From: Streptomyces tirandamycinicus
GTDB taxonomy: Bacteria; Actinomycetota; Actinomycetes; Streptomycetales; Streptomycetaceae
Direction: 5' to 3'
DNA: 64,000 nt
Assembly (NCBI RefSeq): GCF_003097515.1
Contig: NZ_CP029188.1
Location: 496,001 to 560,000 of the forward strand
The position numbers and the translations under genes are program-made. Positions 18,259-47,836 of this stretch are shown piece after piece. Every line of letters starts with the position of its first letter. Position 1 is the stretch's first letter. The notes under the pieces were generated by a model. The model worked only from the letters and a program-made list of their open reading frames with translations. It was not told the DNA's origin and made no database searches.

Positions 18259-18365
18259 GTGTTCCCTTCGTCGCGAGGCGTCGCTCGCTCGATCATGCAG
18301 TGCGGGAGGGTCTGCCGTCGATGGTATGCCGCTCGCTGTCGGTGGCGGGCCGTAGGGTCTGAGTC

Positions 18366-19424
18366 ATGAGTACGAGTCAGCCGCCCGTCCCGGAAGGCCC
18401 GCCGCGCCCCGAGCGGACGCCGTCGTCCGCCGGGGAGACGCCCGCCCCCGCCGCCGGGGTGCCGTCGACGGCCGCCGGGGTGCCGTCACAGCCCCTGCCG
18501 GCGGACGCGCGGGGTCCGGCCGGCGGGCCGCGGCCCGTTCCGGTGGAGGTGCCGCGCTCCGCTGACGGGCATCCGGCCCCGCCGGAGGATCCGGCCTCCG
18601 CGCACGGGAGCCGGCCGCCGGCGTCGCTGTCGCCCTCGCGTGCGAGCGACTTCATGCAGTGCCCGCTGCTCTACCGCTTCAGGGTGATCGACAGGCTGCC
18701 GGAGAAGCCGAGTGAGGCGGCCACCCGGGGCACCCTGGTGCACGCGGTGCTGGAACGGCTCTTCGACGCGCCCGCGGCGGAGCGCACGCCGCCCCGGGCC
18801 AGGGCGCTCATTCCCGGCCAGTGGGACCGGCTGCTGGAGGCGCGGCCGGAGCTGGCCGGGCTGTTCGCGCAGGACGAGGACGGTGAGCGGCTGGCCCGCT
18901 GGATGTCCGAGGCGGAGGCGCTGGTGGAGCGCTGGTTCTCGCTGGAGGACCCGACCCGGCTGGAGCCGGCCGAGCGCGAGCTGTTCGTGGAGACGGAGCT
19001 CGAGTCGGGGCTGCGGCTGCGCGGGGTGATCGACCGGGTGGACGTGGCTCCCACCGGCGAGGTGCGGATCGTCGACTACAAGACGGGCAAGGCGCCCCGC
19101 CCCGAGTACAGCGAGGGCGCGCTGTTCCAGATGAAGTTCTACGCCCTGGTGGTCTGGCGGCTGAAGGGCGTGGTGCCGCGGCGGCTGCAGCTGGTGTACC
19201 TGGGCAGCGGGGAGGTGCTCACCTACGACCCGGTCCCGGCCGACCTGGAGCGGGTGGAGCGCAAGCTGCTGGCGCTGTGGGACGCCATCGTGCGGGCCAC
19301 CGAGACCGGCGACTGGCGGCCGCGGCCGACGAAACTCTGCGGCTGGTGCGACCACCAGGCCCGGTGCCCGGAGTTCGGCGGGACGCCGCCGGTGTACCCG
19401 CTGCCGGTGGTCCCCGCGGGGTGA
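18366..19424 (+). CDS. RecB-family nuclease with Fe-S type cysteines
   Basis: A 352-residue PD-(D/E)XK nuclease. The IVDYKTGK motif (about residues 237-244) carries the catalytic residues, and a split cysteine set (FMQC upstream, C-x2-C-x5-C in LCGWCDHQARC downstream) resembles the 4Fe-4S cluster of AddB/Cas4-type nucleases. The first 90 residues are Pro/Ala-rich low complexity and probably disordered. It is not next to recC, recD or cas genes. The same neighbourhood with trmI occurs in mycobacteria. A role in DNA repair is likely but unproven. Confidence 0.9.
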   Translation: MSTSQPPVPEGPPRPERTPSSAGETPAPAAGVPSTAAGVPSQPLPADARGPAGGPRPVPVEVPRSADGHPAPPEDPASAHGSRPPASLSPSRASDFMQCPLLYRFRVIDRLPEKPSEAATRGTLVHAVLERLFDAPAAERTPPRARALIPGQWDRLLEARPELAGLFAQDEDGERLARWMSEAEALVERWFSLEDPTRLEPAERELFVETELESGLRLRGVIDRVDVAPTGEVRIVDYKTGKAPRPEYSEGALFQMKFYALVVWRLKGVVPRRLQLVYLGSGEVLTYDPVPADLERVERKLLALWDAIVRATETGDWRPRPTKLCGWCDHQARCPEFGGTPPVYPLPVVPAG

Positions 19425-44127: not shown

Positions 44128-44327
44128 ACCGCTCCCCTTACCGCTCCGCACTGCTCCGGATGTACCGCACCACGTCGGATGTGCCGATTTACCGACGAGT
44201 AACGTCCTGGGTCGGGACTCTAGCGCGGGGAGCGGCGTCCCGTCAGGGGGTGGGCGGCTGACGGCTTCGCGGGCGAGTTGTCCACAGGGTCGCTCCGGGT
44301 GGGGCCGTGGCCAGTAATCTCGCGCCC

Positions 44328-45311
44328 ATGGAGCAGAGGCATCTCGGCCGTACCGGTCTGCGCGTGTCCCGGATCGGGCTCGGCACCCTCACCTGGGGGC
44401 GGGACACCGGCGAGCACGACGCCGCCGACCAGCTGAAGGCCTTCTGGGAGGCGGGCGGCACACTGGTCGACACGGCGGATGTCTACGGCGGCGGCGAGGC
44501 CGAGTACCTGCTCGGCCAGCTGGTGGAGCGGCTGGTCCCCCGGCGCGACCTGGTCATCGCCACCAAGGCCGGCAGCGTGCTCGACCCGTCGCGGCGGTAC
44601 GACGGCTCGCGCGGCCATCTGCTGGCGGCCCTGGACGCCTCGCTGGAGCGGCTGGGCACCGACCACGTGGATCTCTGGCAGGTCCACGGCTTCGATCCGT
44701 ACACGCCGCTGGAGGAGACCCTCCAGGCGCTCGACATCGCGGTGGGCAGCGGCCGGGCGCGGTACGCGGGGGTGTCGGGCTTCTGCGGCTGGCAGCTCGC
44801 CAAGGCCGCCACCTGGCAGCTCGCGGCGCCGGGCACGCGGACCCGCCTCGCCGGTACGCAGATGGAGTACTCGCTGCTGCAGCGCGGCGTCGAGCGGGAG
44901 GTGCTGCCCGCGGCACTCGACCTCGGCGTGGGGCTGCTGCCGTCGTCACCGCTGGGCCGGGGGGTGCTCACGGGCAAGTACCGGCACGCGACGCCGACGG
45001 ACTCGCGCGGGGCGTCGGAGCAGCTGGCGGCCTTCGTGGAGCCCTATCTGGACGAGTCGGCGACGCGCATCGTGGAGGCGGTCGCCACGGCCGCCGACGG
45101 GCTGGCGGCGACCCCCCTGGAAGTGGCGCTCGCCTGGGTCCGCGACCGGCCGGGCGTGGTGGCGCCCGTCGTCGGCGCCCGCAACGCGCAGCAGCTCACG
45201 CAGGCGTTGTCAGTGGAGGGTCTTAGTCTTCCTGACGAGATCCGCCGGGCGCTGGACGACGTTTCGGCCCCCGTGCACCGCTATCCCGACCAGGACTGGA
45301 GCACGCTGTGA
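44328..45311 (+). CDS. aldo/keto reductase
   Basis: A 327-residue NADPH-dependent TIM-barrel reductase. The catalytic tetrad is visible: Asp48 and Tyr53 (VDTADVYGGGEAE), Lys80 (VIATKAG) and His in DLWQVHGFD. The C-terminal VVAPVVGARNAQQL binds the cofactor phosphate. The ATG at 44328 is chosen over 44307. Its stop codon overlaps the GTG start of the RecD2-like gene (GTGA at 45308-45311), and a PafBC-type promoter lies in its last 100 bases, so the downstream gene has its own damage-responsive input. Confidence 0.93.
   Translation: MEQRHLGRTGLRVSRIGLGTLTWGRDTGEHDAADQLKAFWEAGGTLVDTADVYGGGEAEYLLGQLVERLVPRRDLVIATKAGSVLDPSRRYDGSRGHLLAALDASLERLGTDHVDLWQVHGFDPYTPLEETLQALDIAVGSGRARYAGVSGFCGWQLAKAATWQLAAPGTRTRLAGTQMEYSLLQRGVEREVLPAALDLGVGLLPSSPLGRGVLTGKYRHATPTDSRGASEQLAAFVEPYLDESATRIVEAVATAADGLAATPLEVALAWVRDRPGVVAPVVGARNAQQLTQALSVEGLSLPDEIRRALDDVSAPVHRYPDQDWSTL
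45207..45229 (+). promoter_or_regulatory. RecA-NDp (PafBC-type) promoter motif
   Basis: TTGTCAGTG (45207-45215), eight bases, then TAGTCT (45224-45229). This fits exactly the actinobacterial RecA-NDp consensus TTGTC(A/G)GTG-N8-TAnnnT, the promoter type activated by PafB/PafC after DNA damage. It lies inside the 3' end of the aldo/keto reductase gene and 79 bases before the start of the RecD2-like gene, in the correct orientation. I saw no other full match in the window. Confidence 0.75.
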
Positions 45312-47836
45312 CTGCGCTTCCCGGGGCGAGCCCCGGCACCCCCTCCGAGGGCCCCGTGGCCGAGGACTCCGGGCACGGCGGCGCCGCGACCGAGGACCCC
45401 GTGGCCAGGGAGTCCAGGCACGGGCACTCCGGGCAGCACGCCGGGCAGCATTCGGGGCAGCACTCCGGGCACGGGGACGCGGCGGCCGAGGAGCCCGTGG
45501 TCGGCGGCTCCCGGCCGGAATCCGGGCGCGAGGCCTCCTCGGCCGGGGGCTCCGGGCCGGGCACGCCCGCCGGCGCGGCGGCGAGCCGTGCCGGGACGGC
45601 CCCGGACGGGGTGCCCGGCGAGGCCGCGAGCGGAGCGACGGCGGACGGGGAAGCGGCGAACGGATCGACGGCGGACGAAGAGGCGGCGGGAGCGGAAGCC
45701 GGGCAGCCCGCGGGCAGGGGGAAGGACGGCGGAGCGGACGGGTCCCTGGGCGACGAGACGTCCGGCGTGGCCGAGACCGGGGCCACCGGCGGCGGCTCCG
45801 AGTTGTCCGAGGCCCAGGCGGAGCTGGCGGCGCAGCAGGAACTGCGGTCGCGGATCGAGAAGCGCAAGGCCGGGAAGTCAGGGCCGATCGCGGCCGGCGG
45901 AAAGCTGAGCGGCACCGCGGCCGACCTGCTGGCGGCGGTGCGGGCGGTGGAGAGCGGCGCCACGCCGTCGGGCACGTTCTTCGAGGCGTCCGCCGCGCCG
46001 CGGAAACCCGCCCCGACGTCCCTGGCCGGGCCCGGGAGGCCACGGGTGCCGATGCCCGAGCCCGCCCCGAGGCAGCCCGGTCCGGGCACGGTGCAGGCCG
46101 TTCTGGAGGTCCTGGTGTCGGGCGGTGCGCCGGAGGGACTGGCCACGCGGGTCGCCGGGGTGCTGGGAGAGCAGGCCGCGGACGCCCTCCGGGAGGACCC
46201 CTGGCGGCTGCTGGCGGTGCCCGGGGTGCAGCCCGAGCAGGCGGACGGTTTCGCCCGGGCGCTGCTCGGCTCGGAGTGCCGGCCGGACGACGGCCGGCGG
46301 GCCGCGGCGCTGGTGGGCTGGCTGCTGGAGCGCGCCGCACTCCGGGGCCACACGGCACTGGAGTCGGCGACGGTGCGCACGGCGCTCGACGGGTACTCCG
46401 TGCCGGACCCCGGGGAGGCGCTGCGGCACGCCGTCGCCGAGGGGGCCGTGCTGGTCTTCCAGGACGGCGTCGACGCCGCCGGAGGGCCGGCGGAGGCCGA
46501 GGAAGCCGGAACGGCCGACGGGCACGAGGCGCAGGAGGACGAAGAGCCCGCCGGGCTGCGGGAGCCGGTCCCGGTCCTGCTCGGCCTGGACCGGTACGCC
46601 CTCGCGGAGGAGAGCCTCGCGGACGGTCTTGCCCGGCTGGTCAGGACCGCGCAGCCGGCGTCGTGGGAGGACGCGGCCGGGGCTGCCGGATCGCCGTCGG
46701 CCGCGGAGCTGATCCGCGCCGCCGCCGGACACGGCCTGGTCGCGCACACCGGCGGCGAGACGGCCCGCGCCGAGCCGGCCGCACTGGTCGCGGCCGCCCG
46801 CTCCCTCGGCCTGCGCGCGGTCGCCGCCGTGCACAGCGAGAACGGGCGGCGCAGGACGGGCGGCGGCGCGGTCACGGTGCAGGGACTGCTCTCCGGGGCG
46901 GAGGGCCCCGGCCGGGACGGCGACGGCGCACTGGCCGTGGATCTGCTCGCGGTCCTCGACGCGCCGCAGCTCGATGTCGAGACCGCGGCCGCGCTGGTGG
47001 AGTCCCTGCCGGACGGTTGCCGGCTGGTGCTGAGCGGGGACCCGGGTGTGCTGTGGTCCGCGGGCGCGGGACGGGTGTTCGCCGACGTGCTGGCCGCCCG
47101 GGTGTGCCCGGTCGTCGCCTCCCGCACGCCCGACCCCGGGCCACTGGGTGAGCTGGTCTCCGGGATCGGCGTCGGCGAACTCGTCCGGGTCGACGCCCCC
47201 GGCAAGGAGGTGGTGATCGTTCCGGTTCGGGACGCGGGCGAGGCCGTGCACCGTACGGTCCAGCTGGTCGCCGACTCGGTCCCGCGGGCGATCGGGGTGC
47301 CGCCGGCCGAGACCCAGGTCATCACGGTCGGCCATGGCGGCTCCGCGGGCACCAGGGCGCTGAACACGGCGCTCAAGGAGCGGTTCAACCCCGGTCCCGG
47401 CCGCTTCGGCGGCTTCGACCCGGCCGACCGCGTCACTTACTCCCCCGCCCCCGGGCGGACCCTGACCGGCTCGGTGGTCTCGGCCGACGCGGAGGGTCTG
47501 CGCGTCGACTGCGAGGGCACCGCCGTCCTCGTCCCGCAGGACCCGGTGGCGTCGGTACTGCGGCACGGCTGGGCGATCACCGCGCACCAGGCGGCCGGAA
47601 TGCGCTGGCCCGCGGTCGTGGTGGTGCTGCCGGGGGACGCGGCCCAGGGCCTGAACCGCCCGTGGGTCTACACCGCGTTCAGCCGCGGCGAACGCCATCT
47701 CTCCGTGGTCCACGGCATGGAGCAGGCACTGCCGCGCGCGGTCGCGGAGATCCCGTCCGAGGTCCGGACGACACGGCTGCGCTCGCTACTGGAAGGGCTG
47801 CTCCCGCCCGGCGAAGCCGGGGGTTCCTCCGGCTGA
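45308..47836 (+). CDS. RecD2-like helix-hairpin-helix protein with degenerate ATPase motifs
   Basis: An 842-residue protein. Residues 1-180 are disordered, Ala/Gly/Glu-rich with GQHSGQHSGH-type repeats. A helix-hairpin-helix region follows (about 255-320), then a RecD2-like helicase core. The core is degenerate: where RecD2 has the Walker A GKT there is HTGGETARAEPA, and the Walker B DE is LDAPQLD with Glu replaced by Ala. Motif III (LSGDPGVLWSAGAG) and the C-terminal AITAHQAAG and VYTAFSRGERHL motifs remain. It probably binds DNA without normal ATP hydrolysis. Its GTG overlaps the preceding stop (GTGA), and a PafBC-type promoter lies just upstream. Confidence 0.85.
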   Translation: MTALPGASPGTPSEGPVAEDSGHGGAATEDPVARESRHGHSGQHAGQHSGQHSGHGDAAAEEPVVGGSRPESGREASSAGGSGPGTPAGAAASRAGTAPDGVPGEAASGATADGEAANGSTADEEAAGAEAGQPAGRGKDGGADGSLGDETSGVAETGATGGGSELSEAQAELAAQQELRSRIEKRKAGKSGPIAAGGKLSGTAADLLAAVRAVESGATPSGTFFEASAAPRKPAPTSLAGPGRPRVPMPEPAPRQPGPGTVQAVLEVLVSGGAPEGLATRVAGVLGEQAADALREDPWRLLAVPGVQPEQADGFARALLGSECRPDDGRRAAALVGWLLERAALRGHTALESATVRTALDGYSVPDPGEALRHAVAEGAVLVFQDGVDAAGGPAEAEEAGTADGHEAQEDEEPAGLREPVPVLLGLDRYALAEESLADGLARLVRTAQPASWEDAAGAAGSPSAAELIRAAAGHGLVAHTGGETARAEPAALVAAARSLGLRAVAAVHSENGRRRTGGGAVTVQGLLSGAEGPGRDGDGALAVDLLAVLDAPQLDVETAAALVESLPDGCRLVLSGDPGVLWSAGAGRVFADVLAARVCPVVASRTPDPGPLGELVSGIGVGELVRVDAPGKEVVIVPVRDAGEAVHRTVQLVADSVPRAIGVPPAETQVITVGHGGSAGTRALNTALKERFNPGPGRFGGFDPADRVTYSPAPGRTLTGSVVSADAEGLRVDCEGTAVLVPQDPVASVLRHGWAITAHQAAGMRWPAVVVVLPGDAAQGLNRPWVYTAFSRGERHLSVVHGMEQALPRAVAEIPSEVRTTRLRSLLEGLLPPGEAGGSSG

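Follow-up and report, generated by a model that had tools for sequence, protein, structure and literature searches.

Is the RecA-NDp-type motif that lies within the 3' end of an aldo/keto reductase gene of Streptomyces tirandamycinicus a promoter in its own right, and does it serve the gene for a RecD2-like protein that follows? A preliminary description of this DNA had proposed as much, and had predicted that the RecD2-like protein is induced by DNA damage independently of LexA and independently of the reductase. We examined these proposals in the whole 64,000-nucleotide stretch (the window, in whose coordinates features are given unless a genome position is stated), in the rest of the genome, and in related genomes.

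The motif, TTGTCAGTGGAGGGTCTTAGTCT, occupies positions 45207-45229 of the forward strand and has 0 mismatches to TTGTCAGTG-N8-TAG-NN-T. PMC5656591 gives the consensus as tTGTCRgtg - 8 nt - TannnT, and all fixed positions of this RecA-NDp/PafBC consensus are matched by TTGTCAGTG-N8-TAGTCT: the TGTCR core and the GTG after it are contained in TTGTCAGTG (45207-45215, +), and an 8-nt spacer, GAGGGTCT, leads into TAGTCT (45224-45229, +), a -10 element of the TAnnnT form. The upstream element is the part that PafBC is predicted to recognise, a role taken over from PMC11804915, and by analogy with M. smegmatis we infer that it is a '-26' element. The exact match and the orientation given in the preliminary description were both borne out, and its distance of 79 bases to the gene is correct as an offset of start position, with 78 bases intervening between the motif and the GTG at 45308.

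When up to 3 mismatches were allowed, the only other matches in the window were at 18336-18358 (2 mismatches) and 1250-1272 (3 mismatches). The former, CTGTCGGTG-N8-TAGGGT on the forward strand, lies 7 nt before the ATG at 18366 of a PD-(D/E)XK (RecB-like) nuclease gene (18366-19424, +), which suggests a leaderless, damage-induced gene within the proteasome/pafBC neighbourhood. No SOS box with 2 or fewer mismatches was found between 44528 and 46958, a weak test because at that tolerance the window yields 173 hits against about 105 expected; this absence is the one feature of the sequence that would speak, weakly, for the predicted independence from LexA.

The chance expectation for the exact consensus, at an assumed 72% G+C, is about 0.001 per 64 kb and 0.13 per genome. 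The 7.29-Mb genome holds 9 exact sites, compared with 0 for the reversed control, and 34 against 0 when the first base is left free. Counting exact sites in 101 genomes of the genus gave 2495, compared with 9 in the control, with a mean of 24.7, a median of 22 and a minimum of 9 sites per genome. With its 9 exact sites, the genome studied here belongs to the three with the smallest counts among the 101.

Genes for DNA repair stand at promoter-like distance behind sites in this genome, though not behind all 34. Those with Pfam support encode RecA, UvrB, the DNA polymerase III alpha (dnaE) and gamma/tau (dnaX) subunits, uracil-DNA glycosylase (ung), MgsA/RarA, a UvrD-family helicase (PcrA-like), an AlkZ-like glycosylase, an exonuclease with a BRCT domain, a PD-(D/E)XK nuclease and an ECF-like sigma factor; RadA, also behind a site, was named from its sequence and domain pattern. 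Sites without an evident repair target precede a TetR regulator, an ABC-type transporter (called by eye) and proteins without Pfam hits.

A few individual sites have features of their own. One exact site (L006/L112, genome position 3168049, +) is followed after 7 nt by the ATG of a protein; by eye this protein resembles McrA-type HNH endonucleases, and its first 497 aa gave no Pfam hit. At genome positions 999574-999596 on the reverse strand (L004/L101), a RecA-NDp site is followed directly by a palindromic, SOS-box-like sequence, TCGAACTAGTTCGT, and then by a 138-aa open frame, an arrangement in which dual PafBC/LexA control is possible. Three loci (L096, L123 and L124, at genome positions 334618, 5059536 and 5106351) carry copies of an identical site, CTGTCAGTGCCTGCCGTTACCGT; they have in common about 190-200 bp of upstream DNA and their 19 initial codons (MASSSDPWSERPQAPHRPA) and then diverge downstream, the pattern that copying of a promoter-plus-start cassette would leave.

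The sites of the genome also provide a calibration for where transcription begins. An ATG or GTG lies exactly 7 nt past the motif in 14 of the 34 sites; of the 60 offsets counted, none of the others reaches more than 6 of 34. It lies 6-9 nt past the motif in 21 of 34, 3 of these 21 being copies of the cassette described above. A peak at 6-9 nt is as for leaderless transcripts from a real -10 element, and we therefore predict that transcription from the embedded site starts at 45236-45239 (+), most likely at 45237. The close ATG or GTG need not always be the start codon used: RecA is confirmed on the frame that begins at an ATG 43 nt downstream. For the embedded site, the calibrated range is a better placement than the start near 45235 predicted earlier.

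We then turn to relatives, where the placement of the motif is shared. A scan of named genomes covered the best 80 of 141 loci (79 labelled Streptomyces and 1 labelled [Kitasatospora] papulosa), and 73 of these carry the site in the same place: in every case the GTG start follows after 78 nt, and the reductase stop codon ends after 82 nt. The match is exact in 58 of the 73; the other 15 differ solely by a T to C change at the first base, a lower-case position of the consensus. Six of the seven loci without the site are contig ends with too little upstream DNA, and in the seventh (L080) the DNA upstream is not that of a reductase and the locus contains 2 Ns.

That the motif is hidden in the 3' end of another coding gene, as had been claimed, also holds. 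The reductase gene (44307-45311, +) matches the Pfam family Aldo_ket_red (PF00248), and the motif lies in frame among its last 35 codons. In a codon alignment of the 73 loci plus the window, the mean third-position identity of the reductase is only 67%, and the 7 codon columns that rank highest of 310 for rare-codon excess all fall within 45204-45233 (+), a result to be read as a rank and not as a probability, because the rows are related by descent. Both CTT codons of this stretch are present in 74 of 74 rows, TCA in 62 and AGT in 65, and the R position of the consensus is A in 62 rows and G in 12. The -10 element takes the forms TAGTCT, TACTCT, TAGGCT, TACGCT and TACCCT among the relatives, variation that stays within the consensus.

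Such a pattern might arise if the constraint belonged to the reductase protein, or to a slow-translating run of rare codons, with the motif being incidental. Read in frame, the stretch does code for a peptide that is conserved, as ALSVE.L(S/T)LP in most relatives, but the constraint falls on synonymous bases, namely those that the consensus fixes. The deciding comparison came from the wider family. Using the C-terminal 578 residues of the RecD2-like protein as query, we searched 61 genomes from 17 genera, including the genome studied here, and found an orthologue in 60; the other genome (G135) gave only a distant match, of the kind that canonical RecD2 gives. One genome (G120) was left out since the locus lies at a contig edge, leaving 59 that could be assessed. 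Within the reductase gene, 43 of the 59 have the site with no more than one mismatch, and 3 others, all of genus g14, have it with two. In 5 genomes the site, likewise with no more than one mismatch, is in the gap that separates the reductase stop codon from the next start (G103, G134, G138, G141 and G148, four from genus g3 and one from g4), with gene order unchanged. The remaining 8 (three from genus g2, three from g5, one from g10 and one from g15) have no match at this tolerance in the upstream stretch that was fetched; the g15 genome has three mismatches in place, and two-mismatch matches elsewhere upstream in G104 and G109 were excluded from the count. Because 8 of the 59 genomes are without the site and 3 have it with two mismatches, the linkage between motif and gene is not universal. 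The check that the preliminary description had suggested, a search for the motif in related species, was nevertheless passed, with 73 of 80 named loci, and 43 of 59 family genomes in the gene plus 5 of 59 in the gap.

The codons of the reductase largely follow the motif. In the five genomes whose site is in the gap, the reductase leucines encoded by CTT in Streptomyces have CTG or CTC instead, and the same holds for the three g2 genomes without the site. Rare codons are an imperfect tracer: the first CTT is retained in a genome with three mismatches (G114), and the second leucine is CTT in two of the three g5 genomes without the site, a persistence that slightly blunts the codon argument. Despite these cases we reject a coding or codon-pausing constraint as very improbable, mainly on account of the five genomes where the motif is in the gap. 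A chance match is more improbable still, and is refuted by the conservation in 73 of 80 loci, by the frozen codons, and by the control counts for genome and genus given above. The DNA is conserved beyond coding needs, as seen both in the codon anomaly and in the gap sites, and on these sequence comparisons the embedded promoter is genuine and is kept by selection inside a coding gene. Genus g3 includes both arrangements, the site being in the gene in 5 genomes and in the gap in 4; we therefore read an apparent relocation of the site between gene and gap, in one direction or the other.

What would drive such a promoter? The regulators PafB and PafC are encoded in the same window, as had been stated, and are supported by domain matches: pafC (637-1605, -) has HTH_PafC, WYL and WCX domains, and pafB (1623-2579, -) has WYL and WCX domains. 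Two Pup ligase-family genes, two proteasome subunit genes and one proteasomal ATPase gene are also present in the window. According to PMC5656591, a pafBC deletion in M. smegmatis blocks induction of the P1 promoter, and PMC11804915 describes a cryo-EM structure of PafBC on a promoter of the RecA-NDp type, with a sigma-adaptation mechanism.

We considered whether the promoter might be real and of the RecA-NDp type, and yet respond to something other than PafBC, such as ClgR or the housekeeping sigma factor unaided. A 2011 paper, as cited in PMC5656591, reported that ClgR recognises the motif in mycobacteria, and our survey of 149 genomes from the phylum found PafC-like domains in many genomes without enrichment of the motif. 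A PafC-type HTH match was present in 114 of the 149 (95 over the cut-off), and the motif was enriched inside the class only (146 sites against 1 in the control, in 12 genomes, compared with 31 against 13 in the 137 genomes outside it); one genome in the class with a strong PafC match (G290) has 0 exact sites. The idea that the motif is tied to the presence of PafC across the phylum was dropped, as the 149 genomes gave no clean association. Because the domain is common but the motif is enriched in the class only, a PafC-like domain alone is no predictor of the motif; and because the domain matches other regulators, several per genome, the survey neither proves nor refutes control by PafBC. Against another driver stand the M. 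smegmatis deletion, the cryo-EM structure and the presence of pafBC in the window, and an unaided sigma factor would find no TTGACA-like hexamer in the window sequence 16-18 nt before TAGTCT. We regard a driver other than PafBC as distinctly unlikely, and favor PafBC.

The gene that the promoter would serve (45308-47836, +) encodes a protein of 842 aa, for which the name RecD2-like is apt in some respects only. It matches PF14490 (HHH_RecD2) with 42.6 bits, over a cut-off of 27, and UvrD_C_2 (PF13538) as well. Its best profile and predicted-fold matches are to the Deinococcus RecD2; the top Foldseek match was 3GP8 (E 1.9e-20), with a TM-score of only 0.29-0.34, for a structure model with a mean pLDDT of 66.4 and an unreliable C-terminal part. 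The RecD2 helicase equivalog model TIGR01448 (helicase_RecD2) gave 101.2 bits, compared with its cut-off of 500. The canonical RecD2 of the genome (851 bits, genome positions 1989303-1991471) is a separate gene, and none of the 34 RecA-NDp sites lies near it.

Comparison of 73 aligned proteins (72 relatives and the window protein) with this canonical RecD2 revealed that the ATPase motifs are degenerate. Neither the Walker A pattern GxGK(S/T) nor the Walker B DE is present: A, S or T replaces the Walker A lysine and E replaces the S that follows it, the Walker B aspartate is lost and the glutamate is D, motif IV is a gap, and the SQ of motif V is AA, each in 73 of 73. The Q of motif III is lost in 71 of 73, and the arginine of motif VI is retained in all 73. 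Two of the proteins have a chance P-loop-like string close to their low-complexity N-terminus. Degenerate ATPase motifs were found also in ten relatives from genera g2, g3, g4, g5, g10 and g15. Because Walker A, Walker B and motifs IV and V are lost throughout the 73, the protein is probably not a helicase. The HHH domain and the RecD2 fold matches are what the RecD2-like designation can rely on, and the protein is probably an ATPase-dead RecD2 paralogue, which we infer has been retained for a non-catalytic role. Its first 160 or so residues (window 45308-45800) are of low complexity and vary between species in length and sequence, and the remainder is conserved. A later start codon for the gene was considered and is thought unlikely, because the GTG, which overlaps the reductase stop codon as GTGA, is retained in the 73 loci.

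This GTGA stop/start overlap, found in the window and in the 73 loci, is typical of operons, and it bears on a further alternative, in which most expression of the RecD2-like gene comes, together with that of the reductase, from a promoter further upstream and the internal site contributes little. We think this unlikely, as selection maintains the internal site, and four g3 genomes and one g4 genome retain it in the gap with gene order unchanged. The predicted independence from the reductase is upheld in that the embedded promoter could act by itself; given the 4-base overlap of the genes, transcription reading through from the promoter of the reductase is to be expected too.

Our preferred reading, to which we assign a probability of about 0.87, is that 45207-45229 is a PafBC-dependent promoter in the 3' end of the reductase gene that raises the level of the RecD2-like protein after DNA damage. 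Going by the mycobacterial system, single-stranded DNA would activate PafBC, the PafB domain would read TTGTCAGTG, and PafC would form a bridge to the housekeeping sigma factor, permitting TAGTCT to be used without a -35 element. Transcription would begin at about 45236-45239, giving a leader of about 71 nt, and translation would start from the GTG at 45308 by means of a likely ribosome-binding site, GGAG (45298-45301, +), which lies 6 nt 5' of that codon and is called from the sequence and from the upstream bases of relatives. Basal expression would come as well through read-through from the reductase. The product would bind DNA by its HHH and RecD2-like domains and act as a non-catalytic repair factor. 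A more specific proposal, which we offer as a tentative and somewhat doubtful one, is that the Streptomycetaceae possess a damage-inducible pseudo-helicase, an ATPase-dead RecD2 paralogue switched on by PafBC from within the neighbouring gene; bound to DNA ends or junctions, it would modulate the canonical RecD2 or the end-resection machinery after damage.

These results bear on the damage response of Streptomyces more generally. A 2022 study of the SOS response in S. venezuelae (PMC9380542) states that an initial search suggested that the M. smegmatis PafBC motif is not conserved there, and leaves open a PafBC-type, LexA-independent damage response in Streptomyces. With 2495 sites against 9 in the control, and at least 9 exact sites in each of the 101 genomes sampled, the motif is shown to be abundant in the genus. 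Genes ready for testing lie behind sites in the genome studied here, among them recA, uvrB, dnaE, radA, rarA, pcrA, ung and the AlkZ-like gene. The embedded site offers a clean case of a promoter that constrains the codons of an unrelated enzyme, with the relatives that have the site in the gap as an internal control. The conserved and probably ATPase-dead RecD2 paralogue is likely part of the predicted PafBC-type response, and, if this is true, the pseudo-helicase would be a non-catalytic arm of a RecA-independent damage response outside the mycobacteria.

Promoters of this type have been described in Streptomyces before. The S. rimosus recA promoter (Ahel 2002) is quoted in PMC2375139 as TTGTCAGTGGCN6TAGggT, and the same source reports related motifs at 67 genes of S. 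coelicolor, of which 13-20 are repair genes; SCO6735 of that species, which has a promoter of this type, is reported to be UV-induced 5-fold (PMC5087735). Both share with the embedded site the TTGTCAGTG-N8-TAnnnT elements in the same orientation, and the recA gene of the genome studied here is itself preceded by TTGTCAGTG-N8-TAGCGT. The SCO6735 site lies between genes, according to PMC5087735 and PMC9411070, whereas the embedded site is inside a coding gene with selected codons. The PafBC-dependent P1 promoter of mycobacterial recA shares its consensus with the embedded site, and PafBC is encoded nearby here; the action of PafBC is shown in mycobacteria and is a prediction for the Streptomyces site. 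In M. tuberculosis, Rv1955 has a RecA-NDp site inside an annotated coding region, as here, but PMC2897130 reports that the annotated start is wrong and that the site is upstream of the true start, whereas the frame that hosts the embedded site is real and conserved. RecD2 itself, an SF1B helicase (Deinococcus, PDB 3E1S/3GP8/3GPL), shares with the window protein the HHH_RecD2 domain, the best structural and profile matches and the motif VI arginine, and differs from it in possessing the residues of Walker A, Walker B and motifs IV and V. We found neither the embedded site nor an ATPase-dead RecD2 in the open-access literature, where the supplementary tables of PMC2375139 and PMC9380542 may list the gene. 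RecA-NDp promoters in Streptomyces are thus already published, and what is new is the dual-coded placement of this one, together with its apparent relocation.
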